DNA of 64,000 nt, taken from NCBI GenBank assembly GCA_935421135.1, contig OW285193.1:16478099-16542098 (forward strand). The letters run 5' to 3'. The notes below the pieces were generated by a model. The model was not told the origin of the DNA. It saw nothing but the letters and a program-made list of their open reading frames with translations, and made no database searches. The stretch comes from Bugulina stolonifera. Taxonomy: Eukaryota; Bryozoa; Gymnolaemata; Cheilostomatida; Bugulidae. A program made the position numbers and the translations under genes. Below, piece after piece: positions 23,735-52,834 of this stretch; positions within the stretch are counted from its first letter, which is position 1, and each line of letters begins with the position of its first letter.

Positions 23735-25653
23735 ATGAGGCTTTTGACACTGGTGTTAGCACTGCTCAACATTGTAATGATCACGCATGGATTTGGATTC
23801 CCAGGAGGGATTAACATTGACAAGAATTTCATCTGTAGGCTGTAAGTGTTATCTTATATTAATACTGATCAACAGTGTTTACATCAGTTATGGTCATGTG
23901 TGACGTCTGCACCTGTGTATTGTTGTAGATATCCTAGGCCTGCACCGGTGTTGCCTCTCCACTGATATTCGGTTTTTGGGGTGGTGGTAATCAAACACCG
24001 GTTGACACCGGTTCTCTTGTGCCTAGTCTCATTCGGTGTCAACCGATGCCAAATTTGGATCGATATACCGAACCGCACCGGACCCTTGATCCTGGTCTCA
24101 AGCGGTGTTAGACGGCGTCAACTTTGGTTCGATATACCGGATCGAACCGGTCCAGGAGCTAGTTCGTCTAATAGAGTTGTCCCATCATGACCGTTCAATA
24201 CAAGGGAACAAAAATCCTCAAAACTTTCTTCCAACATGAGTTCATGCCAATCATTGTTTATTTTATTTTCAGATATGGCAGGCAGACAGGGCTTCATTAA
24301 AACATAGTATTATGTATATTATTTTTATTTAAGTGGCTATTGGGTTAATGAAAGTAATCAGTGCTTACTCCTACTCCCAAGATTTTGTATTTGCCCATGT
24401 AGTCTAGTGAGTCTTAAGTTGCATTGGGTCTTACTTCACCTATTTTATGTAATTTTAATAAATATATTAAATATAAAAAACATGAGGCTGGACACACACC
24501 CAACCGACTACATATAATTTATTACTGATTGTGACCAAATTACAGAAGAAAAACAGCAAACATTGTTTCCACCACACTCGTACCATTGACACAAAAAGAT
24601 AACAAATTTAAAATGACATGGGCTAACTTCATATCACAAGAGAAAGAAGAAACGCTAGCATAGTTGCATATGATGTAATGATAATGTAGGGAATCTTTCT
24701 TGCAAGCTTTCTTGATAGATTGCTGATTTGGTATAATTCAGTGTGTCCACCGATTGAATCTAGCAGATTTGTCTTTAGATGGGATATTACGATGGCTCAG
24801 TCCGATGAATTCTACCTACAAAATATTGATTGAACATTAGTATTAGCTTAGCTTATTTTAAATAAATAAAGAGCTGGTGCTTACCAAAAGCATAACTACA
24901 CAACGATTTTAAATTAAAAAGCCATAATTAATAATGATTAACTATTATAAGCATTGTAGCTATTCTTAGTTACAAGCGAATATAACCAAACTTAAACATT
25001 AGTAGTAGATTAATTATAATAGAATTAATCCAATGGTATGTTTAAATTTAATTATTTTATACTATAATAATCCATTATATTCGATCGTATCCTACTGTTC
25101 TATTTCAGCACACTATTCATGAACAAAGCAATCATATGCAAATGATAGAATATAGTATACTAGAATCTGCTAAGTTACGTAATTATGAATCAATTTATTA
25201 TAATTTAATAATAATTATTACCTCCACAACATTGATAATCAATCACAGCCACGATGGCAGTTAATGTGGAAACGGATTAGCGAAGGTATGCAACCTAGTT
25301 TGAAGTGAGGTAAACAAGAACACGTGATATTAGACCGCATGAATATTGAATGACTACTGGCATAGCGGCCCGGTTCGATAACATCGAACCATCGATATAT
25401 CGTTTGGGCACGGTGCCGGCGCGATTCGGTGCATGAAAAATTTGCCGATGTGTAACACCGAGGGTTCACACACTGTTTACATCGTTTGAAACCGAAACAC
25501 CGTGCAGGCCTAAGATATCCTATCAATTTTGAAAACATTCTCAATTGTCTTGTTGTTCACTGAGATATATCTGTATGATTTTGTAGGACCTGCGCTGGGA
25601 CCTGTGTTAATGGAAAATGTATTAAGTTCTTTCCAACTCCTAACTGGCCTTGA
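23735..25653 (+). CDS. Putative secreted four-cysteine peptide, distant member of the array
   Basis: Two coding exons, 23735-23841 and 25587-25653, joined by a phase-2 GT-AG intron (CT|GTAAGT ... TTTGTAG|G) give 57 codons plus TGA. Residues 1-19 form a hydrophobic signal-peptide-like start (MRLLTLVLALLNIVMITHG). The mature part begins with a Phe/Gly-rich stretch, FGFPGG, and holds four Cys spaced C-x3-C-x3-C-x4-C, ending FFPTPNWP. It shares with the downstream genes the exon plan, the phase-2 intron position and the NGKC motif, but has two more cysteines. The intron carries a complete hAT-like element. AATAAA follows at 25,718. No known family recognised; the role is unknown. A chance match is unlikely because both exons and the architecture agree with the other copies. 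Confidence 0.75.
23935..25512. mobile_element. Non-autonomous hAT-like DNA transposon, complete
   Basis: The terminal inverted repeat TAGGCCTGCAC at 23935 pairs with GTGCAGGCCTA ending at 25512. The 1,578-bp element is flanked by an exact 8-bp target duplication, AGATATCC, at 23927-23934 and 25513-25520. TIRs starting TAG and 8-bp duplications are hAT traits. Both subterminal zones are rich in CCGGT/ACCGG and GATATACCG motifs. I see no transposase frame, so mobility would need an enzyme supplied in trans. It sits wholly inside the intron of the 23,735 peptide gene. Confidence 0.88.
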
Positions 25654-25717
25654 AGACTTGACCAGATTAAATTCGTATATAATGTTTGTGTAAATTTATA
25701 AACTTTGGTTACTGGCT

Positions 25718-25723
25718 AATAAA
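25718..25723 (+). promoter_or_regulatory. Poly(A) signal of the 23,735 peptide gene
   Basis: AATAAA lies 65 bases past the TGA stop, consistent with the short 3' UTRs of the other array genes. Confidence 0.55.
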
Positions 25724-26467
25724 CATACACAAGTATGTAAGTTATAAGACAGTATTATTGTGAACAAATGGTTTCTTAACATCTTAGGGTCAAAACTGTG
25801 GTCTTACCTGTTTCTGATAGTATGATAACTTTAGCATCAGATCCAATATTTCTACAGTTGGTCTTCTAGTAGCGATAGCCTTAGTTCTAGGTCATGTCTA
25901 TGCAGACTATCACTCTGCCAATCAAAAGGAAGAATTTATTTATACCACATATACAATTGAAATTGAAGAATGGAGACATCAAGTCTTGACATCTTTCATG
26001 TTTTCAAAAATATCAAATAGCAAATTAATAACTTAATATGGTACTTTGCACACCAGAAATGCCATTGCATAATATAAAGTATGACTATGTTTTGCTTATT
26101 TTGTTTATATCACTACCAATATACTGGTAGTAGTGACTCTGGCTAAGGAAGAGGTAGTAATCCCTTCTCAGTAGTCCCCACATGTCTATTCTAGCTGACT
26201 ATTAAAAAATAGTAAATTAATTAATATTATTAGTTTTCACAGTTCATAAATATATTCTGCTGGTATCCCAAAAAGTTGTATAAAAAGCGTCTGGCTACGG
26301 TTGTAGTATCAGTAACATCAGCTCATACCTGACCAGAGGAGAGGACTATCACCAGGTGAGATTCATACCTACTAAGATACATTAATATAATATATAAGTC
26401 TCATGTAATTGAAAGATCTGTGTATTATTCTGCATTTTCATCTTTTGATGAAATTGGAACAATCACT

Positions 26468-26850
26468 AACCCATGGGTTTACTATTACTATGTGATGGGT
26501 TCACTGATATTATGTAATGGGTTTACTGATATTATGTAATGGGTTTACTGATATTATGTAATGGGTTTACTGATATTATGTAATGGGTTTACTGATATTA
26601 TGTAATGGGTTTACTGATATTATGTAATGGGTTTACTGATATTATGTAATGGGTTTACTGATATTATGTAATGGGTTTACTGATATTATGTGATGGGTTC
26701 ACTGATATTATGTAATGGGTTTACTGATATTATGTAATGGGTTTACTGATATTATGTAATGGGTTTACTGATATTATGTAATGGGTTTGCTGATATTATG
26801 TAATGGGTTTACTGATATTATGTAATGGGTTTACTGATATTATGTAGGCA
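26468..26850 (+). repeat. 22-bp minisatellite
   Basis: About 17 near-identical units of TGGGTTTACTGATATTATG followed by TAA, in intron 1 of pseudogene B. The units are contiguous, with no spacers. Confidence 0.95.
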
Positions 26851-26937
26851 TATTTGCTAAGGATATCCTCTATTTGCAAGACAGAAGTTGTAAATTGACC
26901 TGGAATAGATACAGATTGGATGTATTGCTGACTGTAA

Positions 26938-27945
26938 AGTCAACATTCACACTGCCGTTTATACCAACTACTAGCGGCGAGCGGCCAACGCTAAACACAA
27001 CTACATTATATAGTGACATGCTCCAGTGAGCGGTAGGGGTCAACGAGTTCAACAAGCTGAACTTTAAAGGTGGGCTGTACTGAAAGTTTCAGAGTTATTT
27101 TCACCAAAATAATAATGTTAGTATTACTTGATACCTCTACAAACACATCTAAACTGTTTTAGTAGTAGCTAATAGACGCTAAACTACAAAAAAGTAGCCC
27201 CAAAATTTCTAAAATAACCATAGTGATGTCAGCATTAGGAGTTGTCTCCACCTAGCTTTATGTTAATTTTCAAAACTTCTACTTTGATTATCTCAACTCT
27301 GACACGCTATATAGAAGCAATATTGAGCTCTCACAACTTTTTTATAAGAGATACAGTGTTCATTCAATAAAACAGATACTAGCAATTATAGTACTACGTC
27401 CTACAGGTTCAACACACCAGTCGAATAAGAATGCATGTTATTCATGAGATAAACAAGTGGCCTATATTGACCAATCAAATTCCAAACTCAAGTCATTTAA
27501 TAATTTTTCGCAACGAATTGTGTTTTTTATTGTCTAGGAATATTAACTAGCATTTAATCTACAAACCCATTTTTTCGTTTTGTGATATTCCTAGTACAAC
27601 AAGGATAAACACTCAATTAAAATTTCTTGTTTATAATAACATAATGAGTGGTCTGGCATTCACTCCCCCCAATGATGCAATTCACTAGTTTTAACAGAGC
27701 TGGGTACCATGATGACATCATGTATCCCAGCTGGTATTGTGCTAACTGGTTCAGCTGCTACTAGGCTTTCTAATGGTGTATTCAACTCATAACGTCAAAA
27801 TTTCAGTACAGTCCACCTTTAAACCCTGCCGCTAACTAACACATGCCAGCTATAGTAAAGTAATAGCTAACCACATTGTGGTTAGCGTTGGCCACTCACC
27901 GCTAGTAGTTGGTATAAATGGCAGTGTGAATGTGTGAATGTTGCA
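26938..27945. mobile_element. Harbinger-like non-autonomous element with long inverted repeats
   Basis: The left end, starting AGTCAACATTCACACTGCC, pairs with a right end ...GGCAGTGTGAATGT...TTGCA. The inverted repeats run about 50 bp (through TTATACCAACTACTAGCGG), with a further inverted pair inside (GGTGGGCTGTACTGAAA / TTTCAGTACAGTCCACC). A 3-bp TAA flanks it at 26935-26937 and 27946-27948. The paralogous sites at 39,490 and 47,125 read ACTGTAACATTGTGAT without the insert, confirming the boundaries. TWA duplications are typical of PIF/Harbinger. No coding capacity seen. Confidence 0.85.
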
Positions 27946-30309
27946 TAACACTGCGATGGGATGTGATGGATTTGTATTGGAATTATTATTACAGATTCTA
28001 CAACTAAGAGGAGAGAGAAATGTTATGAAGGTATATTGTTGTTTATAACACTAATGATGATGATGATGCCAACAGCAGCATGAGTTTGCCCTCCTCTCTT
28101 TATAACTGGTAAGAGTAAGTACAGACTTGCACAAACGGCTCACTGGAATGTGCACACACCAGCCTGGGGGCAAAGTCCCAGGCAGTATCTACTGCTAATA
28201 TCGTGAATTCAAAAAAAATTCCTTTGATATTACTGTACTATATTCTTACAAGTTGTTTACACACAAGGCTATAGCTACTAAATGCTGTACAATTGTATAA
28301 TATTATGTGCATTGCTACATGGCTGCTTACTTTACTATTCCTGTGGGTAATTTTAGGGAATTCCTGGAGAGAAATGATGTGTATATTGACAACAAGACCT
28401 GCTACATTTCAAGATGAATAAGGACAGTTTACAATCTACTACATTGTATAATACAACTGTAATATCCTACTATCAAACAATAAAACTGTACTAAGATCAA
28501 AATACATAGTCTGCTGTATAATGTATAGCCCATGGCAAAGGGTTATTTATTGGCTGTGGCATACTATTTTTATGTCTTTGGCATATTAGTCCAGAAAAAC
28601 TTATTGACTAATATGCTAATACATTTGCATTAGGCCTACATGTTCATAAATACAAAACTAAATATCTGTAGCAATATAACATAATATTAGTGCCTTACCT
28701 GGGCGATATAACACTGAGCTAGTAGCCTTGTGTGATTCTTACTGTCTTCAAAAGTTTGAGAACTTTGACTAAGTAGGCGGCCTGGGTTCGTCCTGTGCGA
28801 AGACACAATCTATTCTATACATTATTGACAGCAATACAGTATCATCATAGATTTAATGTAAATAATGTCATTCCATGAGTATATTTTAAAGTTGAGAAAG
28901 GATAACTCCTCATCCATTTGTTCCATATTATTAACGAGAAAATGGAGTATAAATTTCTAAACAACTAGTTAATATATATGAGGCCATATAGCTGAAATAC
29001 TAGAAGCTTTAATAACAACAATAATGATACTTAGAGCAGAGTAACTGACCTGTTGAAAGAAAAAATCACAAATTTTGAAGTCAATTTACATGAAAAGGTC
29101 ACAATTATCAAAATTCACAATTTTACCCAAAAGTCATGTCTTCTTATGAGTCATGGGCCCATCTGTATTGATAGTCTAAGATTCTTAATTAACAAACCCA
29201 GCATCTTTCTGTTTGCTTAGCTATAATTTAGACAGAGATCAGCATTGGCCTAGCGGTGTTAAGATGGGCACCCAACCTTGTAATGCTACTGTGCTACTAC
29301 AGGTACTTTGCCATTGCTGAAGTACCTTTCCCATCTCAAGTAGAAACAATACAGATCTCTTCAAATCATTGCTTTCTTACCTGCATGGAATTAATAGCTG
29401 GAAATAAAGCCATAACAGCCTAGCTATCATTCATGTCCCTTCCATCTAATAAACACCTTACACAGTAAGCACGAGAACCAAACTAGGGTGGCTGCAGCAG
29501 CATATTTAGTGAAAATACTTAGAAATAGAGAATAAATTTTATTATAGTAATAATAATTAATTTTACTATGTGACTGGTTCCTGTGAGTTGTATTGCAATC
29601 AGCCAGAATACAATACAGTATACAGATTATTCATGATAGACTATGACCATTTTGTCACCAATCCATGCAGTAGTGTATAACTGTGTTTAAAACTATTTAA
29701 ACTACATGTATGTCACTTTAGTCTTGTAACAATTATAGCATTCTATCACTTAGTCTTGTTCAGAAAAAATAATTATGATTATGTTCTCTATAACATACCA
29801 TTCAATAACACTATATAGAGTTGGAACACAGGCTACATGAGCTACATGACTGTATAGTTGGGTGTGGAACTGGCCTGAATAAATATCAAAGAAAAGTTCC
29901 TGGTAATCAATATTTACTGTTTTTATGTAACTATAGAATTAATGTCACTTTTGTTTCTGGCGTCTGATGAATAAATGTGCATTCTGCTGGTATTCTACAA
30001 GGTGTCACACTCTGTAACTGTGATATATCAGATATCAGACTCGGGAGTCAATACTGAAAATAGTACAAATGTAATATGCCCAGTCTCAGCATTCTATTTA
30101 CTTTATAACATAGTCAAGTCCCTGAACAATTTGACAGACCTGGTCACCAAGTAGGCAACTACTAAACTGCTGTAAAAAGCTGACAATGTTCAATAACAGG
30201 CTGTATGGACTTGCTAAATAATTGAATCCTGTTCTGGGCTAGCAGCAAATGTGAACAAGTCAGATTCCGGTTAAATTTATATTTAGTCGTTCTGTTTAAT
30301 AATAGAAAT

Positions 30310-30370
30310 GTCATCTTCATTTGACATTTTATAAATATATTCAGTTGGTACTCTAAAAGTGGTATAAAGG
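30310..30370 (+). promoter_or_regulatory. Core promoter of peptide gene copy 1
   Basis: Conserved module: TTGACATTTTATAAATATAT, then TCAGTTGGTACTCTAAAAGT, then GGTATAAAGG (TATA at 30,363). The leader exon ends at 30,420 before GTGAGTGTC. The same module precedes the other array genes. Confidence 0.8.
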
Positions 30371-30604
30371 CCATTGCACCGTTTGGGTGAAAAAACAAGC
30401 GCAAGATCAGGATCAGGTGGGTGAGTGTCTTATTGTACTATAATCATTAACAAAATTTATTTGCAACACTTCACCTTTTCACTACAAGATAAGTCGGTAT
30501 AAAATAGTAGAAAAAACGTTTCCAGGTGTAGTTTATTTGTTTTAGTTCTGTTCAGCTTATTCCTGGAGGATATTATTAATTTGTTCATTTTAATATACTA
30601 CATG

Positions 30605-31680: not shown

Positions 31681-31754
31681 TCCTGCAGTGTATATTATCT
31701 GTATGAACCTTCTGGATTCATTATTACAGATTCAGCAACTAAGGGAGAAACAAC

Positions 31755-32111
31755 ATGAAGGTATTGCTGTTTGTAACACTGTTGATGATGATGATGATAA
31801 CAATGATGCCAGTGTCAGCATGGATTATTGACTGGAAGCCTCCAGGCCTCCGGTGAGAGTTTACCTCCCTACATGTGTCACCCAATTCTCCAACCATATA
31901 ATATACATGTACATATTGTACTATATACATACGCAGTACGTCAGTTTTGCTCATACACATACAATGATTACATTGTAGTAGGCCTACATACTTCATGTGC
32001 ATACATTATATTCCATTTCCATGAATATGATTCTGTTCTGCTTATTTTAGATTTTGTGACAATGGAAGAGGTCTTGAGATCAATGGAAAATGCATTCCAT
32101 TGCCAGTCTAA
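31755..32111 (+). CDS. Putative secreted single-disulfide peptide, copy 1
   Basis: Coding exons 31755-31852 and 32051-32111, phase-2 intron, 52 codons plus TAA. The leader exon is at about 30,390-30,420, and the exon holding the ATG starts at 31,730. Residues 1-22 form a signal peptide with a Met-run core (LLMMMMITMMPVSA). The predicted mature peptide, about 30 residues, begins with Trp (WIIDWKPPG) and has two Cys 11 residues apart in the motif C-D-N-G-R-G-L-E-I-N-G-K-C, ending IPLPV. Poly(A) signal at 32,205-32,210. Its closest sister is copy 3, with the same C-terminus. No known family recognised. Confidence 0.85.
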
Positions 32112-32204
32112 CCTTGACCCTTCTTGAATTACACCAGACCGTAGCTATAAACATGCTACAAGAAGTACTATCAATATTGTATATGAAAATTTCTGCTATC
32201 AAAT

Positions 32205-32211: not shown

Positions 32212-33222
32212 CTGTATATTATAACATAAATCTATTGATCTCAAAGTGTATAGTTGGTATTTCTTTAGTAACTATGAGAGCCATTATATAATATGAATAC
32301 ACATTCCCTGAGTGTTATTGGAGGTGCTCACAGCATGGCCTGTGGGAAAGACAACTTCTAGCTTTCAATAAATAATTATAATTATATTTCCTTGCTATAT
32401 CTACATTAGATTTATACTACACTGAAGGTTGTAATGTCTAAGTCCTTATAGGCCTATTAAAGTGAAAATTAGATGTGAGTACTTGAACAAAGGGCTAAAT
32501 CAGGCACTACTGAACAGTTGTGCTATAGTATGTCCCCCCCTCTCCCTGTAATGTAGCACAATTACATGTATACTACTACTGGGACTACGCATGTTACACA
32601 GGGCTTTGTAGCCAAATATGGGAAACAATTCTACTTTAGCTGAGTTATAAACACACATTTAGCTTGTTTAAAAGTGTATAAATGCACCCTGTGTAAACCT
32701 TGAATTTGTATGTAATTCATTGTAACAAGTACTTGGCTGTGTGTGGGGTATATAGCATCAAGTGATGTCAACCTACTTAGAAACAAGAGAAGATACAGCA
32801 TAGGCTCAGAGTATGAGTATGAAGTTGATAGTGTGCCTTATAACATTAGCATTACCTATCCAGTTATATCTTGTCCAGTCCTCCTGCTTCAGGTCCGTGG
32901 TCTCTTCAGGCCGTTATTTTATTGTGACCATCCAATTAAGTTTGAGCCTTCCTCTTTTCTTCTTGCCAGCTATCTTTACATCTTCTACTATCTGCAAATG
33001 ATCATGCCATTGAAGTGTCTCATTCTCATGTGTGTGTCGAAACTGGTTTTACTTTTGTTTCACTTTTTATTTCCTCGTTCCTAACATGATCCTCCTAACT
33101 GATTCCATATAGCGTTGACGTCTATATTGCTTGAAAAGAAAGTAATTCTTCTATCCACAAACAACTTTTCTTCCAGCTCTCTTTTAATGGGATTAGTACA
33201 ATGGTAGTAAGCTAGCTATTGC
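32212..33222. repeat. Spacer with duplicated block X1, no gene
   Basis: Copy 1 and its downstream flank to about 32,980 align with copy 3 and its flank to about 46,890 (for example GTGCTCACAGCATGGCCTGT and TATGAAGTTGATAGTGT). Fragments also recur near 50,150-50,360. Only chance frames are present. Confidence 0.75.
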
Positions 33223-33674
33223 TGCTGTTATACTGTGGTGAATCAGCCTCCGTGGTAATAGTCAGTCTCCCTTGGCTAACCACACTCTGACTATATTTAC
33301 TCTTATACATGCATTGACATTACCTTCCTTATATCCAATCTTACACATGCATGGACATTACTCTGTTATTATAATCAACGAGCTATGCATAGTGTGCTTT
33401 GTATTGTTATCATTAACCAATCAGGTTAAGCAACTCTTTCTACACTCCTGCTGTTATACTGTGGTGAATCAGCCTCCGTGGTAATAGTCAGTCTCCCTTG
33501 GCTAACCACACTCTGACTATATTTACTCTTATACATGCATTGACATTACCTTCCTTATATCCAATCTTACACATGCATGGACATTACTCTGTTATTATAA
33601 TCAACGAGCTATGCATAGTGTGCTTTGTATTGTTATCATTAACCAATCAGGTTAAGCAACTCTTTCTACACTCC
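33223..33674 (+). repeat. Tandem duplication, 2 x 226 bp
   Basis: The segment starting TGCTGTTATACTGTGGTGAA at 33,223 is repeated at 33,449. Both copies end AACTCTTTCTACACTCC and I saw no difference between them. This implies a very recent event, or an assembly duplication. Identical short frames in both copies are a by-product. Confidence 0.92.
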
Positions 33675-34060
33675 TTGTGAGTTCTACACCATCGGACTTT
33701 AGCCGATCCCGGATTCCTTATGAATCTAACGCCAGGTCTAAGTCCTCAGATTACTACTACTTCTTTCTACACTCCTTTGGAGTATAAACCTGCAGACCTA
33801 CGTCGACCCTGGACTCTTTCATGAGTCTCAGCCTCGGCCCACGTCATTATCGACAATAATAGAGCATTAACTAACTGTTCACTCTTTATGTAATGTGTGG
33901 AAGTTACCTTGGTCGTCCTCTACCAACCTCCAAGCACTTCCCATACACCTGTGCCATATCGGCACTCGTATGTAACACAGCTCAAAACATTACAGTATTT
34001 TGCACACCAGAGATGCCATTGCATAATATAAAGTATGACTATGTTTTGCTTACTTTTTTT

Positions 34061-34504: not shown

Positions 34505-35419
34505 TATAAAAAGCGTCTGACTACGGCTGTAGTATCAGTAACATCAGCTCATACCAGACCAGAGGAGAGGACTATCACCAGGTGAGATTCATACCTACTA
34601 AGATACATTAATATATACAAGTCTCATGTAACTGAGAGATCTGTGTATTATTCTGTATTTTCATCTTTTGATGACATTAAAACAATAGCTAACTCATGGA
34701 TTTGTATTGGAATAGTTATTACAGATTCTACAGTACAACTAAGACAAGAGAAATAATATGAATGTATTGCTGTTTATAACACTGGTGATGGTGATGATGC
34801 CAACAGCAGCATGGGTTTACGCTCCCCCTATATAACTGGAATAAGTAGAAAGTAAGTACAGACTTTTACAATACAATTAACAAACTTCAAACGACTCACT
34901 GGGTCGTGAACACACCAGCCTAGGCCAAAAGAAATCCTTATTTTCGTGCGAGACACTGCCGGTGGGCCGATCAGCTAGGAATCGTTTTTCTCAACAATGC
35001 AAAATCCCTGGTCAATAGCCCTTTTGGGCCTAGGTCGGACGACCATCTTCGGAATTTTATTTTTTACCCAGGTCTGCTTAGTATTTTGAACTAAAAAAAT
35101 ATTGGATGTTACTGTATATTGTATATTCTTACAAGTTGTTTACATACAAGCCTATAGCTTTTTAACAATTCAATTATACAGATTGTATAATATTATGCAC
35201 ATTGCTACATGACTGCACACCTTTAATTTCTGGTGGGTAATTTTAGGACATGCTTGGAGAGATATGCTGGTATGTACATTGACAAAAAGTGCTACAGGCC
35301 CTACGTACACTAGTAGTCTTCACTCGTGACACTTGAATGATGAATAAGGACAGTTTACAGTCAACTACATTGTAATACAACTGTAGATTTGATGTAGTGT
35401 TCTACTATTCTACAATAAA
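34505..35419 (+). pseudogene. Peptide gene of the second set, copy C, frame closed before the donor
   Basis: TATAAAAAG at 34,505; leader exon to 34,581 (CACCAG|GTGAG); acceptor at 34,724; ATG at 34,758. The frame runs 25 codons (signal-like MNVLLFITLVMVMMPTAAW) to TAA at 34,833, ahead of the GTAAGTAC donor at 34,852. The last exon from 35,247 would encode CLERYAGMYIDKKCYRPYVH, with Cys 12 residues apart; AATAAA is at 35,414. Either a pseudogene, by loss of two bases relative to sister copies, or a gene now making only a very short product. Confidence 0.6.
34918..35075. mobile_element. Diverged internal part of a TA-target MITE
   Basis: Text such as GAACACACCAGCCTAGGCCA and GGCCTAGGTCGGACGACCAT matches the interior of the MITEs at 36,630 and 42,969. 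No clear ends remain. Confidence 0.6.
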
Positions 35420-36629
35420 CTGTACTAAGATCAAAATACGCCTATAGTCTGCTGCATAGTGCATGGCGCAGGGTTATTTATTGGCTGTGGTATACTATTA
35501 TTATGTTAGTGAATTACAATGTAGTAGTGTTTCGCCCAGAGCGACCTATTGACTAATTTGTTAATAAATTTGCATTACATATTCATAAAAATGTAAAATT
35601 AAAGATTTGTAGCAATATAACAAATTTATTGTCTTCACTAATTTTGTCTATTACTTGAAAATTTTATAACAAACGTGCCTAATATTACCAGTTTTATTTG
35701 CATTTTCTCATAGTTCAGAGTTATCTCCTCTACCTTCATGTTTCTTTTTAGCCTCCAAATATTTATACGTATAGCAAATCTTAGCCAGAAATACCAGGCT
35801 ATTATTTCTTATTTATTGCTAGCCACTCAAATTTCATCCTAGCTTGCAAATAGAGGCTAGTATTTTATTATTAAATAAAACAGTTCATCATCATTTTTTT
35901 TATTAAAATGATAAGAACTAAGCTACAGGCTTTTTATTTATTTCCTGTACTAAACATTGCTAGCAGATCAATTAGCAGCTTAGTGACAATCGAATGCAGC
36001 TGTAGCCCTATGAAACCAATGAATACATGCATTTCGATGGCTTTGTTGGAAACCAAGGATTAGGTGGAATCGATGGTGAATAGACCAACGAAAATCGCCA
36101 TCGAATATCGAATGCTATTGGCGATTCCCAACCCTGTATACATATAACACTGGGCTGGTAGCCTGGTAGCCTGTCTTTGGTGGCTTGAGAACTCTGACTA
36201 AGTAGGAGTGTATTACACTACCATAATTTTCTCTTTCCTGTAAATAATGAATAAATACTGAAACAGGAAAACCCACAATACAAAGTATATGCAATATACA
36301 TGTACATTACATTCTGTAAAATATTGACAGGTTATCATTGGCCAGATTCTTCCATATTATTATATAATTTCATTTGTCTAGAACCAAAATTTGTTACAGT
36401 GGCCTTTTTCTATGGGCCTGGGGGAGGGATGGGCTTAATATCAGATACAACCAATTCAAAGGTAGAAGTAAGCTGTTGTTGTTGAGTCCACCAATGGGCT
36501 GGCAGCACCACTAAAGGCTCCAGTGTAGCAGCCAACCCATTTAGTCTTGATGGACTTGCACCACATTGAAGACAAGATAACTCCTACTACATCATGCTGA
36601 GATCCATTGTTAGTATTGAGAGACAAGTA

Positions 36630-36894
36630 GTGTCTTCGCGACCAAATTTCAGGCACAGGCCAACTTGCTAAAAATGTTTTCAGCATCTTTCCGTCGCAGA
36701 GTCACGAACACACCAGGCTGGGCCAAAACAGAATCCTCATTTTTGTGCGACAAAGTCAGATGTGCCGATGAGCTAGGGATGGTTTCGACCGGCCAAGCAA
36801 AATTCCAGGCCAATAGCCCTTCTGGCCTAGGCCGGATGGCCATCTTGTGATTTGTATTTGCGACCTGGGTCCGTCCATCAGATTACGAAGACAC
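36630..36894. mobile_element. 265-bp MITE with TA target duplication
   Basis: Inverted ends GTGTCTTCGCGACC / GATTACGAAGACAC (the right end is partly mutated), flanked by TA at 36628-36629 and 36895-36896. A better preserved sister copy is at 42,969, and further fragments lie near 28,780, 34,918 and 45,175. The TA duplication suggests a Tc1/mariner-type source. Confidence 0.8.
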
Positions 36895-39539: not shown

Positions 39540-39660
39540 GATTTCTATTGGAATAATTATAACACTGATGATGGTGATGATGCCAACAGCAGCATGAGTT
39601 TACGCCCCCCTCTATATAACTGGATTAAGTAAAGACTAGAGAGTAAGTGCAGATTTACCT
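39540..39660 (+). pseudogene. Truncated peptide gene of the second set (block Y1)
   Basis: Retains TAACACTGATGATGGTGATG and CCAACAGCAGCA but lacks the start codon and first codons; the Trp codon reads TGA. A donor-like AGAGAGTAAGTG follows. No last exon found. Paralogous to the region at 47,160-47,330. Confidence 0.75.
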
Positions 39661-40554: not shown

Positions 40555-40615
40555 TCATCTTTGCTCTGACCATTTATAAATATATTCAGCTGGTACTCTA
40601 AAAGTGGTATAAAAG
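40555..40615 (+). promoter_or_regulatory. Core promoter of peptide gene copy 2
   Basis: ATAAATATATTCAGCTGGTA and CTCTAAAAGTGG, then TATAAAAG at 40,608; leader exon ends at 40,674 (GGATTACAG|GTGAGTGTC). Confidence 0.8.
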
Positions 40616-40941
40616 CCACCTCACCCTTTGAGTGAAGTGAGACATACAAACCAAACACAAGATCAGGATTACAGGTGAGTGTCTTCTTAGAGAATTATAG
40701 AAATTATTAATTTACATGTATAATCCTTTATATGATTCTGAGATCAAGTGTAGACTGAGAATTTATTGTTCATTGCTTCACTTTTTACCCAAAAGAGAAA
40801 GAATTAAGAATGTTATTTTTGGTCTGTTCAGGTCTGAATGGTGTTGTTAATCAGACTATATTATACTAAACGTTGCTATATTATTTGTATCAACCTATTG
40901 AATTCATTGTTACAGATTTAACTTACTAAGAGAGAAACAAT

Positions 40942-41719
40942 ATGAAGGTATTGCTGTTAGTAACACTGCTGATGATGGTGATGATGATGATGCCAGTGTC
41001 AGCTTGGTTTGCTAGTGGATGGAAACCTCCCAGGTAAGAGTACGCCTAGTCTTGTGTCAACCAACCATATAATATAAACATGCATTACATGCATGTACGT
41101 TGTACATGTATACACATTAGCTCATACACATAAAAAAGAACTCACCGGCTTATACTCCTCGGCGTGACCAGCCCCTAGCAGCTTGCACTGACAGGTGCCC
41201 GTGCTGGCCAACTCCCTGTGAGAAAAGGCCCAGATGACATGGCCTTCTTTTTGGCAGGGGTAGAGGAGTTACCTTGAAGCCATGCTTTGCATGACCCCAA
41301 GGACTATTGAGGCACAGGAGCAATTATGGCTGGATGCTCTTCCTAACACCACTGTGACCGGGATTCGAACCTGGAACCTTCAGCGTGAAAGCTCAGCATT
41401 CTAACCCCTAAGCCATACACATAATGATACATGAATATAATGTCTATAATTCATACTGCATTTGTGCTGGCATGCATCTATCTATCAGGGATGACAATGC
41501 TTGGCTTCTTCTTGAGGCGCCGCCCAATACAGTTTCCAGGTTTTCATTAATGCCAGTAAGTGAACTGGCATGGAGTTTAGATATCAATGTGTATATATTA
41601 ATATATTAATATATTCTATTCCCTTAGATCTGATCCTGTTTTTCTTTTTCAGGCCATGTAACAATGGCAGAGGTATCATGATCAATGGAAAATGCTACAA
41701 AATTCCGGTTCCAGGTTAA
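40942..41719 (+). CDS. Putative secreted single-disulfide peptide, copy 2
   Basis: Coding exons 40942-41033 and 41653-41719 (phase-2 intron) give 52 codons plus TAA; the exon with the ATG begins at 40,916. The signal peptide core is a Met run (LLMMVMMMMPVSA, cleavage predicted before Trp). The mature part, about 31 residues, starts WFASGWKPP, has C-x11-C with the motif C-N-N-G-R-G-I-M-I-N-G-K-C, and ends YKIPVPG. It has five Lys/Arg and no acidic residue, the most basic of the set. Poly(A) signal at 41,811. Intron 2 contains a SINE absent from sister copy 4. Role unknown. Confidence 0.85.
41134..41413 (-). mobile_element. tRNA-derived SINE
   Basis: On the minus strand the head reads TGGCTTAGGGG (A box) and GGTTCGAATCC (B box, plus 41,361-41,371), as in a tRNA. 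An 11-bp duplication CATACACATAA flanks the element at 41123-41133 and 41414-41424. Copy 4 has the single uninterrupted sequence CTCATACATATAATGG at the equivalent place. A standalone tRNA gene is unlikely because the body continues about 200 bp past the tRNA-like part. Confidence 0.88.
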
Positions 41720-41810: not shown

Positions 41811-41816
41811 AATAAA
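41811..41816 (+). promoter_or_regulatory. Poly(A) signal of copy 2
   Basis: AATAAA in the shared context CCAAACAATAAAACTG, 92 bases after the stop. Confidence 0.7.
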
Positions 41817-42004: not shown

Positions 42005-42170
42005 TTTGAAGGAAACTTATTACTGAAACAAGTGCTACAGTCCCTACGTACACAAGTAGTCTTCACTCTGACACTTGAACGATGAATAAGGACAGTTTAC
42101 AATCAACTGCATTGTATAATACAACTGTAGATTTGATGTAGTGTTCTACTATTATACAATAAAACTGTAC
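42005..42170 (+). pseudogene. Last-exon remnant of a second-set peptide gene (block Z3)
   Basis: AAGTGCTACAGTCCCTACGT and the following 3' UTR match the last exon of copy C, but the acceptor and first Cys are gone and no first exon lies upstream. Confidence 0.65.
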
Positions 42171-42968
42171 TAAGATCAAAATACATAGCCTGCTGTATAG
42201 TGGTGGCGCAGGGTTATTTATTGGCTGTGGTATACTATTATTATGTTAGTTACATACAATGTAGTAGTGTCTGGCCCAGAGTGACTTATTGACTAAGTTG
42301 TTAATAGATTTGCATTAGTGTTTATAAATACAAAACTAAATATCTGTAGCAATATAACATCTGTTTACAGTGCTTACCTGGGAGATATACATATAACACT
42401 GTGTTTGGAAGTTTGACAACTCTGACTAAGTAGGAGTGTATTACACAATCATAGTTTTCTCTTTCCTGTAAATAATGAATAAATAATGAAACAGGAAAAT
42501 ACACAGTACAAAGTATATGATATATTATATGCAATATACATGTATATTGCATAATGTAAAATATTGACAGGTTATCATTGGCCGAATCTGTTTATAAATC
42601 AAGAGACAGCCTCCCCCCCCCCTCCCTATTAGGTTATGATCAGTGTATTACCAACTTGGAGAGTTTCAATAGAACCAGATTCTTCTATATTATTATATAC
42701 ATGTAATTTCATTTGTCTAGAACCAAAATTTGTTTCTGTGGCCTTTTTCTATGGGCCTGGGGGAGGGGTGGGCTTAATATCAGATACAACCAATCCAAAG
42801 GTAGAAGTAAGCTGTTGTTGTTGAGTCCACCAATGGGCTGACAGCACCCCTAAGGGCTCCAGTGTAGCAGCCAACCCATTTAGTCTTGATGGACTTGCAC
42901 CACATTGAAGACAAGATAACTCCTACTACATCATGCTGAGATCCATTGTTAGTATTGAGAGACAAGTA

Positions 42969-43233
42969 GTGTCTTCGCGACCAAATTTCAGGCACAGGCC
43001 AACTTGCTAAAAACGTTTTCGGCATCTTTCCATCGCAGGGTCGCGAACACACCAGGCTGGGCCAAAACAAAATCCTCATTTTTGTGCGAAGAAGTCAGAT
43101 GTGCCGATGAGCTAGGAATGGTTTCGACCAGCCAAGCAGATTTCCAGGCCAATAGCCCTTCTGGCCTAGGCCGGACGGCCATCTTGTGATTTTTATTTGC
43201 GACCTGGGTCCGTCCATCAGGTCGCGAAGACAC
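42969..43233. mobile_element. 265-bp MITE, intact inverted ends
   Basis: GTGTCTTCGCGACC at the left and GGTCGCGAAGACAC at the right are perfectly complementary 14-bp ends, with TA on both sides (42967-42968, 43234-43235). Sister of the element at 36,630 and present at the same relative place, so the insertion predates the Z2/Z3 duplication. Confidence 0.85.
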
Positions 43234-45414: not shown

Positions 45415-45474
45415 TTGTCTTTGTTTGACATTTAATAAATATATTTAGTTGGTACTCTAAAAGTGGTATAAAAA
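45415..45474 (+). promoter_or_regulatory. Core promoter of peptide gene copy 3
   Basis: TTTGACATTTAATAAATATA, TTTAGTTGGTACTCTAAAAG, then TATAAAAA at 45,467; leader exon ends at 45,539 (GGACAACAG|GTGAGTGTC). Confidence 0.8.
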
Positions 45475-45917
45475 CCATCACAATCTCTACATGTAGCTGA
45501 AGTGAGGCACACAAACCAGACCCAAGATCAGGACAACAGGTGAGTGTCTTCTTAGAGAATCATATTAACTATGGTATTATATGAATTTTGAAATCAATTT
45601 ACAACACTTCACCTTTTCACCACAAGATAAGTCGGTATAAAATAGTTTCCAGGTATAGTTTATTTGTTTTAGTTCTGTTCAGCTTATTCCTGGAGGATAT
45701 TATTAATTTGTTTATTTTAATATACTATATTCATTTCTATATTTCACTTCTTATATCCTATATTATACTATATATTCCTATATTATACTATAATAATATT
45801 CCTATATTATACTATATATTCCTATAATTATATACTACATTGTATATATTCCTATATTATCTGTATGAACCTTTCGGATTCATTATTACAGATTTAACTT
45901 ACTAAGAAAGAAACAAC

Positions 45918-46272
45918 ATGAAAGTATTGCTGTTTGTAACACTGTTTATGATGTTGATGATGATGATGCCAGTGTCAGCATGGTTAGATAGTGGATTTGG
46001 CTGGGAATGGGAACCTCCCAGGTAAGATAGCACCTCCTTACATGTGTCACCCAATTCCCCAACCATATAATATATACAAGCACATATTGTACTATGTACA
46101 TATGCAGTACGTCCTTGCTCATACACAATATCAAGGAAATACATCAATAATACATACTCTATGTGTATGTATCCTATTCCCTTGAATCTGATTTTGTCCT
46201 GCTTATTTCAGGGTGTGTAACAATGGAAGAGGTATCAAGATCAACGGAAAATGCATCCCATTGCCAGTCTAA
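45918..46272 (+). CDS. Putative secreted single-disulfide peptide, copy 3
   Basis: Coding exons 45918-46021 and 46212-46272 (phase-2 intron), 54 codons plus TAA; exon with ATG from 45,892. Signal peptide LFMMLMMMMPVSA. The mature part, about 33 residues, starts WLDSGFGWEWEPP (three Trp, three acidic residues), then C-N-N-G-R-G-I-K-I-N-G-K-C and IPLPV. Poly(A) signal at 46,366. Same block type as copy 1, but its N-terminal mature segment is longer and more acidic while the Cys loop is nearly identical. Confidence 0.85.
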
Positions 46273-46365
46273 CCTTGACCCTTCTTGAATTACACCGGAC
46301 TGTGGCTATAAACATGCTACAAGAAGTACTATAATTATTGTAGATGAAAAATTCTGCTATCAAAC

Positions 46366-46371
46366 AATAAA
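46366..46371 (+). promoter_or_regulatory. Poly(A) signal of copy 3
   Basis: AATAAA in the shared context CAAACAATAAAACTG. Confidence 0.7.
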
Positions 46372-47217: not shown

Positions 47218-47313
47218 ATGAAGGTATTGTTGTTTATAACACTGATGATGGTGATGCCAAAAGCAGCATGGGTTGACGCTCCCCTCTATGTAACTGGATT
47301 AAGCAGAGCATAA
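47218..47313 (+). pseudogene. Second-set peptide gene with open first exon but no second exon
   Basis: ATG at 47,218 opens 31 codons (signal-like MKVLLFITLMMVMPKAAW, then VDAPLYVTG) to TAA. The position of the donor in sister copies reads GCATAAGTAC here, with GT lost, and no matching last exon was found downstream. It could still make a very short unspliced product. Confidence 0.55.
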
Positions 47314-48357
47314 GTACAAATTTACCTGAATATTATAAATATACAATACAAGCAATTGTGAACAAACTTAGATTTCAAACTGAACTGAACTCCAACATGC
47401 TGAATATGAGAAAGGCATAAGATTTTCTGCTATGTGTTTTCCCATTCTAGTGCACAATATTGTACTCATTCATGGATACCCAAACAACGGCTAATAAGAA
47501 ATAGTTTTATGTTGTTTTTGGGTTGTTATGATTCAGCTGCTATACTGCAGAACTTTATCAGAGCTCAGCAAACACACAGAGAAAGGCCTATCATTTGATC
47601 CTAGATAGCTAGAGGTTTTAGTCTCATAATTTTTCTGCTGTAATTTCTCTGCCAAATTTTCACATTTAAGCATTCACAATTACTCAATAAACTACTTAAA
47701 CCAACTTCCATTGGTCGCCTTAGTCTACCTATATTGTTAGGTTATATACTCCTTCTATGGAACAACAACCTGGCTTTGTTCAACATCATAACATGATAGT
47801 CTTCCTACTACTAGCAGGCAGCTACTAGGTTACGTACTTTACTTACTTACTACACAAAGATAATATTACAGCTCACACTACTTGTCTAAAGAAATACTAA
47901 ACAATTTGAGAGACTAGAAGTGACAGGTCTGGTACAGACATCCACTGCAGGCTCTATAAGCCATTTTAGTTGAAGATGGAGTTGGTCCGCTGTTATTCAG
48001 TAAAAGATTCCTTGTAAAATTTACTTTTTTTATACAAATATAGAAATGTCAATTTGGTTTTGACATCTCATAAATATATTGTTGTGTATTGTCTTTATGC
48101 TGGCATTCTAAAAGTGTCATAAAGGATACAAGACCAAGAAGCCTAGGTATACAAGAGTATATCCGGAGAGAGATATACAAGGTCATTTGACAGACCTGCA
48201 CAGATACTAAAACACTATGACTATGGTAGCAGGCTGATATTGCTCAAGAACACAGGCTATATGGATTTACTAAGTAACAGATCCTGTTCTGGACTAGCTG
48301 CCCACTGTGATCAAGGGCAGTTCTGCTTTAGTTCAGATTTAGTCTTTTAATAATAGA

Positions 48358-48416
48358 AATGTCATCTTTGTTTTGACATTTTATATTCAGCTGGTACTCG
48401 AAAAGTAGTATAAAAG
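48358..48416 (+). promoter_or_regulatory. Core promoter of peptide gene copy 4
   Basis: GTTTTGACATTTTATATTCA, GCTGGTACTCGAAAAGTAG, then TATAAAAG at 48,409; leader exon ends at 48,477 (GGATTACAG|GTGAGTGTC). Confidence 0.8.
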
Positions 48417-48798
48417 CCGTCTCACCCTTTGAGTGAAGTGATACATACAAACCAATTGCACAAGATCAGGATTACAGGTGAGTGTCTTCTTAGAAAATTA
48501 TAGAAGTTATTATAATTATTATAACCCTTTATCTGATTCTGAGATCAAGTGTATCTTCAGACTGAGAATTTGCTATAATTTATTTACAATGCTTCACTGT
48601 TTTACCAAAATGGAATTCCTTATAAAATAATAGGAAAGAATTAAGAATTATTTTTGGCCTGTTCAGGTTATTTCAGAAAGGTATTATTATTCCTATATTA
48701 TACTAGACATTCCTATGTTGTACTAAACATTGCTATATTATTTGTATCAACCTATTGAATTCATGTTTACAGATTTGACTTACTAAGAGAGAAACAAT

Positions 48799-49550
48799 AT
48801 GAAGGTATTGCTGGTTATAACACTGTTGATGATGATGATGATAATAATGCCAGTGTCAGCTGCGTGGTTTCCTGGTGGATGGACACCTCCCAAGTAAGAA
48901 TACACTCCCTTACATGTGTCAACCAACCATGTAATATGAACATGTATTACATGCATGAACATACACGCTTGCTCATACATATAATGGTACATGAATATAA
49001 CGGTAAAGGGACATTTCGAAAAAGACGGTTCGAACCAGGACGTTTCACAACCGGACAGTTCTAAACCGGAGAGTTTGAAACTGTGTAGATTGCATTTAGA
49101 AGAACAACACGCACAAATAATTAATTTTAGTTAATTAATTTAATTGATTAAATAAAAAAAATAATATTAAAAATAAAAATTAGATTAAATCTGGTGGTTG
49201 GGGTTTGAGGTTAGGCGCTTTGAACTGTCCAGTGTTGAACTGTCCACTTTCGAAACATTCTGTTTCGAACTGTTTTTTTCAAACAGTCGCACATTCAAAT
49301 ATGACGTCTATAATACATACTGCATTTGTGTTGGCATGCATCTATCAGGGATGATAATGTTTGGTTTCTTCAGTTAACCATCATTTGTGATGCTTGAGGC
49401 GCCTCCCATACATTTTCCATAGGTTTCCATTAAAGTCAGCAAGTGGACTGGCACAGAGTTTAGATCTTGCTCTTCTTTTTCAGGCCGTGTAACAATGGCA
49501 AAGGTATCAAGATCAATGGAAAATGCTACCCAATTTCGTTTCCAGGTTAA
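48799..49550 (+). CDS. Putative secreted single-disulfide peptide, copy 4
   Basis: Coding exons 48799-48893 and 49484-49550 (phase-2 intron, AA|GTAAGA), 53 codons plus TAA; exon with ATG from 48,773. Signal peptide LLMMMMIIMPVSA. The mature part, about 32 residues, starts AWFPGGWTPP, then C-N-N-G-K-G-I-K-I-N-G-K-C and YPISFPG. Four Lys and no acidic residue. Poly(A) signal at 49,637. Sister of copy 2. Intron 2 holds a TTCGAA-rich MITE. Confidence 0.85.
49001..49296. mobile_element. TTCGAA-rich inverted-repeat MITE, second copy
   Basis: Left GACATTTCGAAAAAGACGG and right CTGTTTTTTTCAAACAGTC are imperfect inverted repeats. The equivalent place in copy 2 reads GAATATAATGTCTATAAT without the insert, which sets the limits to within a few bases. 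Confidence 0.78.
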
Positions 49551-49636
49551 CCTTAAGCGTTTCTTCAGCTCATTGGGTGGTGGCTACAGACATGTTATGA
49601 TATTGAAGATTTAAATGTTCTATTCAACTGTCAAAC

Positions 49637-49642
49637 AATAAA
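49637..49642 (+). promoter_or_regulatory. Poly(A) signal of copy 4
   Basis: AATAAA in the context TCAAACAATAAAATTG. Confidence 0.7.
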
Positions 49643-49649
49643 ATTGTGT

Positions 49650-50363
49650 ACTGTTGCATATACATGTAGGCTTATTATCACCAAAGGGACACATTTGCTA
49701 TTTTAATTATAATAGTCTCAAATATTATGAATACAAGATTCTTGTTTTCCATTGGAGATACTTTTTTCCAGTCTGTTGGAAAGCCAACTCCAAGAAATTA
49801 TTGCTATAATAATGCTTCCCCACAACATTATAATAACTTGTACACTTTGGTCTATAATGCCAATAGCCTAAAGCAAAACTTTGGATAGCTTCCAAACTTG
49901 TCCTCATGCCACAGTACATGTAGTTATTCACTCATTCGATAAAGTGGTGCCAATGTGTCCCTTGGGACTATCTCTGAGGTGCACTGATCAAATACATTCT
50001 TTGAACTTCCGTTGAACACAGTAGAATATTCCAGCATTACAGTTACAAAGAATAAAGTACATGCAAGTAGCTACACCAGGTATACCATTATTGGTACATA
50101 AACATACATAAACCTTGACCAATATGGTTGCTTAGCTAGAGTTCAGCATTCGAACTGCTGGCATAAGTGCTTGAACAAAGGGCTTGACTAGCTTGTAGGC
50201 ACACATAGCAGGCTTGTATTGCCACCATGACCCTTATTAAACATAATAAGCAAAGTTTTCACAAATATAAATGTAGAGCATGGCCATGCCATGATGCCAA
50301 CCCAACCTACCTGGAAACCACAGGAAGTACAGTCTGGTCTCAGAAGATTAAGATGAAGTTGAT
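49650..50363. other. Spacer, no gene seen
   Basis: AT-rich sequence. From about 50,150 it shows scattered similarity to the flank of copy 1 (GCTTGAACAAAGGGCT; ATGAAGTTGATAATGTG), so the duplicated block extended here before decaying. Confidence 0.5.
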
Positions 50364-50676
50364 AATGTGGTATGACCTTGACATCTGCTTGATCTCAATA
50401 AAGACACATCTACTGTATAGTACTACTTACACAGAGTCTTCACTTCATAGTTGTCAAGGTCTTCGACCTTGCTTCCCGAGCTTCCTGCTAGGTCGGAACA
50501 TACTCTTTCTCAGTATAGTAAACAAGCATTGACTCTGGACCACATGGGTCTTGAGTAGTCATTGGAGCACTAGTACCTGTCGATCTTTCATGTAATGAGA
50601 AGACCTAGCACCACTCATACATTGTGTAGGTTCTTCATTTTAGACAAGGACATCACAACCCCCAAAAGCCATCACA
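50364..50676 (-). mobile_element. Diverged LTR-like repeat, inverted relative of 30,821-31,483
   Basis: Read on the minus strand it starts TGTGATGGC, and includes CATTACATGAAAGATCG and GTAGATGTGTCTTTATTGA, all paralleled in the element at 30,821. The low-coordinate end is uncertain. Confidence 0.55.
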
Positions 50677-51108
50677 ATATAATGCTAGTTGGCTAGTTGT
50701 TGCTGTCGTTAGTAAGTTACGCACCTAGATGCATCAAAAATACACCCTCTACCAAACAAACATTCATTAATACTTTAAATTGTCACTAAACAAAACTTGG
50801 CTGGGTGAAAAAAATGGTTAGGAATGGACAATAAAGTTTTCATCCCTGTAATAATAAATTTATTTATTTAACTAGAGGTGAGAGGGTCCCTTGCCTTATA
50901 ATTTCTATCTACAGTGTGTGTTATACAACCAGCCATATATAAATCCACAATGATTTAATTAGCTAACAATTTATAAAATGTAAAAATGTATATATTTAGT
51001 TTACTAAGTTTTTCTGTGTAACAATTATAGTTTAGTTTTGTTTGTTTTGTTTAGTTTCTGAAACAGAAACATATTGTATTATAAGGTATAATCTACCATA
51101 CAATAACT

Positions 51109-51597
51109 ATGTTAGTTTCAACTAACCTAGGCAAAAGGTTCTTAAATATTATGAACACCGGTTTCCCAGCCAACCATACTCTGAGAATAATATTCAACAG
51201 AAATACTATGAAGGTGAGCTATGCCTGCAGGCCAAACATGGCAACATTGATAGCAAAAATTGACAAGACCTCAACAGAAGCCAGAACAAACACAGGGAAT
51301 TGTAGAGTCAAGGAACAATGTACACTAAATGTAAGCTACTGACAAATGAGGAGTTTAATCTATCAAGCAATCGTAATCACCAGCATCAATAAAATAGAGA
51401 CATATGTAGGCCTAGCAGAAAACACTTTCAAAACTAGATACTATAATAACCACAATCATGTCATCCATTGGAATGGGCTTGAATTGATCAGAGACAAGTT
51501 CCTGGTAGCCCAAACTACATTTACTGTGTCGTTCAGAAATAATAATCATGATAATAGTATCTATATATTGTCCAATAGTAAAGTTCAGCACATGTAG
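51109..51597 (+). pseudogene. Retroelement remnant with GIY-YIG-like segment
   Basis: Two abutting frames, 51109-51342 and 51346-51597, separated by a stop. The first holds VSYACRPNMATLI and a Cys-containing NTGNCRVKEQC stretch; the second has TYVGLAENTFKTRYYNNH. This order (Cys-rich segment, then YVGL...FKTRY) resembles the C-terminal endonuclease part of animal Penelope-like or related retroelements. Assignment rests on motif memory. No reverse transcriptase core is visible upstream, so the copy is 5'-truncated. Confidence 0.6.
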
Positions 51598-51724
51598 AGT
51601 CAGAACACAAGTCTACTAGTTACATGAACTGTGATTGGGTACTGACTTGGCCAGTGGTTACATGAGTTCCACGTAGTTTATATTTAATTTTACTATACAA
51701 ATACAGAAATGTCACTTTAGCCTT

Positions 51725-51778
51725 CACATGTAGCTACATTTTATATTCTACTGGCATGCTCAAAGTGCCTTATAAAAG
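51725..51778 (+). promoter_or_regulatory. Core promoter of peptide gene copy 5
   Basis: ACATTTTATATTCTACTGGC, ATGCTCAAAGTGCC, then TATAAAAG at 51,771; leader exon ends at 51,847 (GTATCAG|GTGAGG). The most diverged of the modules but in the same order. Confidence 0.75.
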
Positions 51779-52021
51779 GTATTACACACTGAAACTGATG
51801 CGATATACATGTTAATACAATACCAGATACAAGATCAGGAGTATCAGGTGAGGTTCTATTTTACACATACTTGAGACCTTAGAGTTTAGAATAATATAAT
51901 TTTCTAGTTATACATGCATATTCATGCTACAAACTAAAATATAAATACATAATATGGGCTGTTAGGGGGTTTGACCAGTTTTATATATTATATACAATCA
52001 TGTAGTATAATAATATGCTGT

Positions 52022-52135
52022 TTTTATGCAACAAATTTGTCTATTGAGCAGTCAGAGACTTGCTTCACATCCTGGTATTTTCATGGATGTGAAACAAGTC
52101 GCTGACTGCTCAATAGACAAATTCCTTGCATAAAA
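52022..52135. mobile_element. Hairpin MITE in intron 1 of copy 5
   Basis: TTTTATGCAACAAATTTGTC and TATTGAGCAGTCAGAGACTT pair with AAGTCGCTGACTGCTCAATA and GACAAATTCCTTGCATAAAA, leaving a short centre. One arm recurs in a dynein intron at 2367. Target duplication not clear. Confidence 0.8.
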
Positions 52136-52242
52136 GATATCATAGATATGTAATAGTTTTTTTCAGCTTATATCTAGTTTAATACTTTATTTATTATAAT
52201 ATTATAATCTTACATAATTATATTATAGATTTAACAACTAAC

Positions 52243-52834
52243 ATGAAAGTATTGCTGTTTGTGACACTGCTGTTAAGTGTACTGGTGATGATGATGATGC
52301 CAGTGTCATCTACAAGGATTGGTGGTCCTAACGGATCTGGGTCTGGTTGGAAACCTCCCCCATTCGGGTAAGTGTACCCTCCCCCATTCGGGTAAGTGTA
52401 CCTTCCCCCATTCGGGTAAGTGTACCCTTCCCCATTCGGGTAAGTATACCCTTCCCCATTCGGGTAAGTGTACCCTCCCCCAAACAACCTTCCAGTGTAA
52501 ATACATGTATGTATAGAGGAGTTGGAATGTATGAACCCACTAGACTAAGCTACAACTACATGGTGTAATGTATATGCTACTACAACTACATGGTGTAATG
52601 TATATGCTGTTACAACTACATGGTGTAATGTATATGCTACTACAACTACATGGTGTAATGTATATGCTGTTACAACTACATGGTGTAATAATGTATATGC
52701 TGTTACATACTTCATAGTTCCTGCTGCAGTTAAATAATATCATTTTATTATGCTGATTCTGCTCTGTTTACTTTAGGCTGTGCAACGATGGGAAAGGTAT
52801 CAACATTGGAGGAGTGTGCTACCCTCTTGGTTAA
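52243..52834 (+). CDS. Putative secreted single-disulfide peptide, copy 5 (diverged)
   Basis: Coding exons 52243-52367 and 52777-52834 (phase-2 intron, GG|GTAAGT), 60 codons plus TAA; exon with ATG from 52,229. Signal peptide LLLSVLVMMMMPVSS. The mature part, about 37 residues, has a Gly/Ser-rich start (GGPNGSGSG), then WKPPPFG, C-N-D-G-K-G-I-N-I-G-G-V-C and YPLG. Poly(A) signal at 52,924. The first donor is followed by four further copies of itself. No large duplicated flank is shared with the others, so this is an older member. Confidence 0.82.
52356..52492 (+). repeat. 24-bp array repeating the copy-5 splice donor
   Basis: CATTCGGGTAAGTGTACC plus CTCCCC occurs at 52361, 52385, 52409, 52433 and 52457. 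Every unit carries an intact or near-intact GTAAGT (one GTAAGTAT). The 24-bp period keeps the phase, but reading past the first donor meets TAA at once (GGG TAA), so any later donor would end the peptide before the Cys loop. Confidence 0.9.
52551..52702 (+). repeat. 30-bp minisatellite in intron 2 of copy 5
   Basis: Five units of TACAACTACATGGTGTAATG + TATATGCTAC/GT, the last with a 3-base insertion (TAATAATG). Confidence 0.92.

Follow-up and report, generated by a model that had tools for sequence, protein, structure and literature searches.

A tandem array of predicted small secreted disulfide-loop peptide genes and their decayed relatives in the bryozoan Bugulina stolonifera

A stretch of 64,000 nucleotides from the bryozoan Bugulina stolonifera (assembly GCA_935421135.1, contig OW285193.1, positions 16,478,099 to 16,542,098, forward strand; hereafter the window) was analysed, and five intact genes for small, apparently secreted peptides with a two-cysteine loop were found on its forward strand. 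These genes, termed c1 to c5, stand in tandem between 30.4 and 52.9 kb, within 23 kb of DNA. As judged from the sequence, this orphan gene family is real, and its anatomy and turnover are well resolved. The explanation that we favour, with a probability of about 0.5, is that the peptides are secreted hairpin effectors with a single disulfide, and that their family is restricted to one lineage, is subject to birth-and-death turnover and probably acts in defence. Among classes of product, a secreted effector is the likeliest. Defence is the first guess because of the small size of the peptides, the duplication and the decay, with signalling close behind. The array had been noticed in an earlier note made from the letters alone, and its anatomy appears both real and more ordered than was stated there.

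The two coding exons of each gene are separated by a phase 2 intron with GT..AG borders in all five cases, and the precursors of c1 to c5 are 52, 52, 54, 53 and 60 residues long, respectively. Every precursor combines a signal-like start (cleavage judged by eye) with two cysteines, spaced C-x11-C, that sit in the motif C-x2-G-[RK]-G-[IL]-x-I-x-G-x-C. The five open copies on one strand, the signal with its loop motif and the range of 52–60 residues were thus all confirmed as the earlier note had described them. The note had also assigned the motif W...W-x-P-P to all five; it was found in four, while c5 has a single W. Two exons had been proposed for each gene. However, a TATA-box core promoter is common to c1–c5, as is a non-coding 5' exon with a splice donor at its end, and because this 5' exon is conserved in all five, the genes are predicted to have three exons. 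A poly(A) region, or 3' end, with its poly(A) signal is also shared by the five copies downstream of the coding sequence.

Some features of the individual genes were recorded in addition. The hydrophobic core of the signal in exon 1 of c1–c5 is largely a run of ATG (Met) codons, a short repeat whose length differs between copies. A 24-bp unit repeated 5.4 times (52354-52482) takes in the 3' end of c5 exon 1 together with its donor site, so that several copies of the donor GTAAGT occur; by eye, only the first of these leaves the frame open. The intron of c2 carries, at 41360-41374, a stretch resembling a tRNA B box (GGGATTCGAACCTGG), which, by eye, we take to be possibly part of a tRNA-derived short interspersed nuclear element. 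ARAGORN predicted no tRNA gene in the window.

The products of these genes were next considered. By the usual -3,-1 rule, and judged by eye, the signal would be cleaved near PVSA/W, giving predicted mature products of 30–38 residues and 3.4–3.7 kDa. The c2 product has five basic and no acidic residues (isoelectric point 10.1) and the c4 product four basic and no acidic residues (isoelectric point 9.6), and the grand average of hydropathicity is negative in all five. Three of the five (c2, c4 and c5) end in Gly. A C-terminal Gly is an amidation donor, and these three peptides may for that reason be amidated at the C terminus. A weak AlphaFold model of the loop exons (mean predicted local distance difference test score 74, predicted template modelling score 0.32) placed strands at residues 9-11, 16-19 and 22-25, with a turn at N20-G21.

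As read from the sequence, the copies arose by local segmental duplication, and other copies in the array have decayed, as in birth and death. In the mechanism proposed, the product of 30–38 residues would probably need no further propeptide processing once the signal is cleaved. Its arm of Pro and Trp (W-x-P-P) would lead into a ring of 13 residues that one Cys–Cys bond closes, a β-hairpin turning at N-G. The peptide would be an abundantly made extracellular effector in which the variable arm tunes the target and the ring serves as the fixed scaffold, with a role in host defence in the first place and in epithelial signalling in the second.

Whether the open frames reflect selection was examined through substitution ratios and simulation. 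The frames of c1–c5 have probably been kept intact, under a constraint that is loosened or shifts between the closest pairs, because neutral simulations never kept five copies open and because c5 can be aligned with its neighbours only in gene parts. At none of four settings, with 3000 runs each, did all five copies stay open, and at half the branch lengths four copies were kept open in 1 of 3000; the simulation used a five-leaf tree with branch lengths set by us, partly from flank divergence, and was run without gene conversion. BLAST comparison of c5 with the other copies returned aligned pieces solely from the exons, the 5' exon and the 3' end. The earlier note had named a ratio of nonsynonymous to synonymous change (dN/dS) near 1 throughout as the outcome that would speak against the family; the pooled pairwise value for the whole frame was 0.49, with c1–c5 at 0.26 and c1–c3 at 0.31, yet c2–c4 stood at 1.21 and c3–c4 at 0.93. 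Fisher tests gave p=0.017 for c1–c3 and p=0.0004 for c1–c5, among tests on five of the ten pairs that are not independent of one another. The note had further read the N-terminal mature segment as showing the pattern of diversification, which is borne out in part. Its length and charge do vary, and its dN/dS exceeds 1 in two of ten pairs (c2–c5, 1.37; c3–c4, 1.68; at most six synonymous sites each), but the pooled ratio is 0.57, beside 0.61 for the signal and 0.39 for the loop, and positive selection is not demonstrated.

Several of the results weigh against maintained defence effectors. The c2–c4 pair, whose dN/dS is the 1.21 given above, is the closest of all, and the Fisher tests for c2–c4 (1.0), c3–c4 (1.0) and c2–c5 (0.38) were far from significance. 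Coding and non-coding change were alike in c1–c3 (29/156 versus 105/609, p=0.72) and in exon 1 of c2–c4 (11/92 versus 53/424, p=1.0). Exon 2 of c2–c4 changed less (7/67) than a mixed flank (61/256, p=0.018), but at a rate similar to that of the 3' stretch alone (19/172). The c1 and c3 products each have four basic and three acidic residues, unlike a simple cationic antimicrobial. The hairpin model was built from five close sequences, in rows that begin with 6–9 residues wholly or partly derived from the intron. Finally, NF-kappaB-, IRF- and AP-1-like sites were absent from all five promoters, and a single STAT-like site (c3) is at chance level.

One interpretation of the equal coding and flanking change, together with the high c2–c4 ratio and the several broken neighbours, is that the array is non-functional duplicated DNA, its frames still open through recent duplication or gene conversion and not through selection. 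We consider this improbable, in view of the simulated loss of open frames (gene conversion was not modelled there), the restriction of c5 alignments to gene parts and the conservation of the TATA box and splice sites in five of five copies.

It could be instead that the peptides are ligands for signalling or recognition (hormones, attractants or cues), bound by a receptor through the disulfide ring. The constant ring and variable arm would suit such a role, as would the three terminal Gly residues and promoters in which sites of the four kinds named above do not exceed chance. However, the precursors have neither the repeated peptide units nor the dibasic sites of many neuropeptide precursors (by eye), and multiple dead copies would be commoner among effectors; signalling ligands are on balance an unlikely account. 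In the promoters, E-boxes number 5, 2, 6, 3 and 4 in c1–c5 against an expected 2.16, above expectation in four of the five, and an ETS-like site occurs in three of five, one in each, against an expected 0.30.

A narrower form of the effector explanation is that the peptides are cationic, amphipathic antimicrobial β-hairpins that permeabilise membranes. The charge of c2 and c4, the Trp residues of the arm and the one-disulfide hairpin model point in this direction, but the mixed charge of c1 and c3, the negative hydropathicity throughout and the finding that solved hairpin peptides gave no significant match in sequence or fold do not, and the proposal is tentative at best.

The origin of the loop was explored by structural and profile comparison. 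A Foldseek search with the loop model returned 24 rows within a limit of E<=10, of which none reached E<=0.001; the best of these (E 4.3 or worse) were mostly short hairpins from Cys-rich domains of ADAM type over 14–18 columns. With the five-sequence profile, the best PDB row (E 0.12) was the TIL domain of IMPI alpha, in which the spacing C-x2-G-x6-G-x-C recurs over 17 positions. The genome itself gave 11 TIL matches. The hairpin pattern was present at seven of these 11 loci, representing six distinct domains (loci L019 and L029 overlap). All six lie in a single open frame with no break ahead of the hairpin. Their ring falls one residue short of that of c1–c5 in five of the six; in the remaining one (L019/L029) the two lengths agree. 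These matches raise the idea that the loop was captured from a Cys-rich extracellular domain, such as a TIL inhibitor or an ADAM-type domain, and placed behind a new signal exon. The equal-length ring of L019 would fit this idea, but the scores are not significant, none of the five members matches Pfam, and the genomic domains show neither the expected break nor, for the most part, the same ring. A TIL capture origin was therefore not supported and is considered improbable; the likeness would be that of a common hairpin, and homology is not supported by the sequences.

Relatives were also sought more widely. Against a set of 5.8 billion proteins, searched via shared 5-residue words and including NCBI, UniRef, nr, EukProt and ENA material, c2 gave no candidate and the five-sequence profile gave 446 candidates with 0 at E<=10; note that spliced tiny proteins of related species are often unannotated and may be missing from this set, so that absence from it is not proof. 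No Pfam (E<=10) or NCBIfam family was assigned to any of the five members, and sequence searches of the PDB returned chance-level rows only (two in one search and ten in another). A first, loose DNA pattern applied to the genome was uninformative (8684 and 8845 matches versus 6770 and 6600 for the control). In the literature, where the sequence itself could not be searched, no paper was recognised as describing such a family. The claim of an undescribed tandem family of small secreted Cys-loop peptides accordingly holds for the five genes, which have no relative in the sets searched. Within the genome, where match counts are lower bounds, c2 found at least eight matches and c5 at least four, in array exons only, and c3 exon 1, searched as DNA, found at least six, namely the five first exons and the relic p47 described below. 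That c1–c5 represent a structurally new class of effector peptides in animals, with a minimal 13-residue disulfide ring, an N-G turn, a variable W-x-P-P arm, an origin in a single lineage without relatives elsewhere, and two subfamilies, one surviving and the other dying, within one array, is a doubtful but conceivable extension.

The dying subfamily, termed B, was absent from the earlier note. From their sequences, its members (p28 to p47; Table 1) are decayed relics of a sister group interspersed in the array. No loop exon of p47 was found within the window, and the p34 loop exon, searched against the genome, matched only itself. One further copy, of c type (L017), was located on the opposite strand of the same contig (C7), near 15904.2 kb and some 0.6 Mb from the array. 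It was detected via the 5' exon, at 94% identity over 80 bases, in a search that gave five matches in total, c5 not among them. L017 is read as a relic because its TATA box and usual splice sites are lost and its signal core is altered; by eye, the region of the Met run is read there in another frame and is Asp-rich. Its intron holds, at approximately 3264-3493 of L017 (reverse strand), an inverted repeat, GTAGTGGTAAAAGACGTGA...CACGTCTTTTACCACTAC, that by eye is like a small insertion of a miniature inverted-repeat transposable element.

A sixth gene, with four cysteines, had been reported at 23735. This frame does have a signal-like start, but a genome search with its 36 residues gave one match, to itself. 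Loose splicing rules allowed 22 continuations, none of them outstanding, and the sole version with exactly four cysteines is 80 residues long, outside the range of 52–60. Kinship to the family was not borne out, and the frame was rejected as a sixth member.

The window lies in a 235-Mb genome of 27 contigs. An axonemal dynein heavy chain gene of DNAH9/17 (outer-arm beta) type occupies the forward strand up to about 22.2 kb of the window; a joined query of 2493 residues matched animal axonemal dyneins at 73–78% identity among the best 120 of 3394 matches, in a search whose length filter excluded relatives longer than about 4360 residues. A stretch with an RNA-recognition motif is found on the reverse strand near 57 kb, and the array stands between it and the dynein gene. 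No known RNA families were detected in the window. Much of the sequence from 26 to 50 kb consists of segmental duplicates, and two non-coding 300-base blocks in different array units (36362-36661 and 42701-43000) are 97% alike. A perfect 226 bp tandem duplication at 33222-33675 is either very recent or an effect of assembly, and 17 tandem copies of a 22-bp unit, with 96% matches, are present at 26473-26846.

Table 1. Positions in the window of the gene parts of c1–c5 and of the subfamily B relics.
Feature	Position	Strand	Remarks
c1 TATA box and non-coding 5' exon	30362..30434	+	exact splice site uncertain
c1 coding exon 1	31755..31852	+	signal peptide, N-terminal mature segment
c1 coding exon 2	32051..32111	+	Cys loop, including stop
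c2 TATA box and non-coding 5' exon	40607..40674	+	donor GTGAGT at 40675
c2 coding exon 1	40942..41033	+	
c2 coding exon 2 (Cys loop)	41653..41719	+	poly(A) signal AATAAA near 41811
c3 TATA box and non-coding 5' exon	45466..45539	+	
c3 coding exon 1	45918..46021	+	
c3 coding exon 2 (Cys loop)	46212..46272	+	
c4 TATA box and non-coding 5' exon	48408..48477	+	
c4 coding exon 1	48799..48893	+	
c4 coding exon 2 (Cys loop)	49484..49550	+	
c5 TATA box and non-coding 5' exon	51770..51847	+	
c5 coding exon 1	52243..52367	+	
c5 coding exon 2 (Cys loop)	52777..52834	+	poly(A) signal near 52924
p28 B-type relic, signal exon	28025..28084	+	frameshift; end approximate
p28 B-type relic, loop exon	28357..28417	+	first Cys position not Cys
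p34 B-type relic, signal exon	34758..34835	+	in-frame stop
p34 B-type relic, loop exon	35247..35313	+	reads TCLERYAGMYIDKKCYRPYVH
p39 B-type relic, signal-exon fragment	39557..39596	+	
p42 B-type relic, loop-exon fragment and 3' end	42027..42184	+	may belong to the gene of p39
p47 B-type relic, signal exon	47218..47313	+	usual donor lost

Among the main sources of new molecules for defence and signalling in animals are secreted peptides confined to particular lineages. Their tiny size, the introns that split them and the lack of any match make them difficult to detect. At the present locus, promoters, splice sites, and live and dead copies stand together, which allows the origin, alteration and disappearance of an orphan effector to be followed, and the peptides are short enough for synthesis.

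The family was also set beside several known systems. The TIL domain (PF01826) has ten cysteines and five disulfides; the spacing C-x2-G-x6-G-x-C is shared with its member IMPI alpha, whereas the peptides described here have two cysteines and no Pfam match in any of the five. A local likeness to an LDL-receptor class A repeat of LRP1 (2fyj), comprising CNNGR and IN in the ring, is at chance level (E 0.65). Such a repeat has six cysteines and a calcium site, and the family has neither. One-disulfide hairpins of thanatin type are likewise short and secreted, with the predicted hairpin and, in c2 and c4, the basic charge in common, but ring size, the W-x-P-P arm and mixed charge set the present peptides apart.

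The Toll-induced Bomanins of Drosophila offer a further parallel. The genes at 55C form a cluster of short secreted disulfide peptide genes restricted to the genus, ten of which are removed by a 9-kb deletion, and the products share a 16-residue core motif with CXXC (PMC4411088). No Bomanin record turned up in the protein-set or Pfam searches, and no direct comparison was made. By comparison, the five intact genes within 23 kb are similarly a cluster for short secreted peptides, but CXXC is lacking and C-x11-C is found in all five. On these sequence features the family resembles the Bomanins in style, as a set of lineage-restricted secreted disulfide peptides, but is not a Bomanin.

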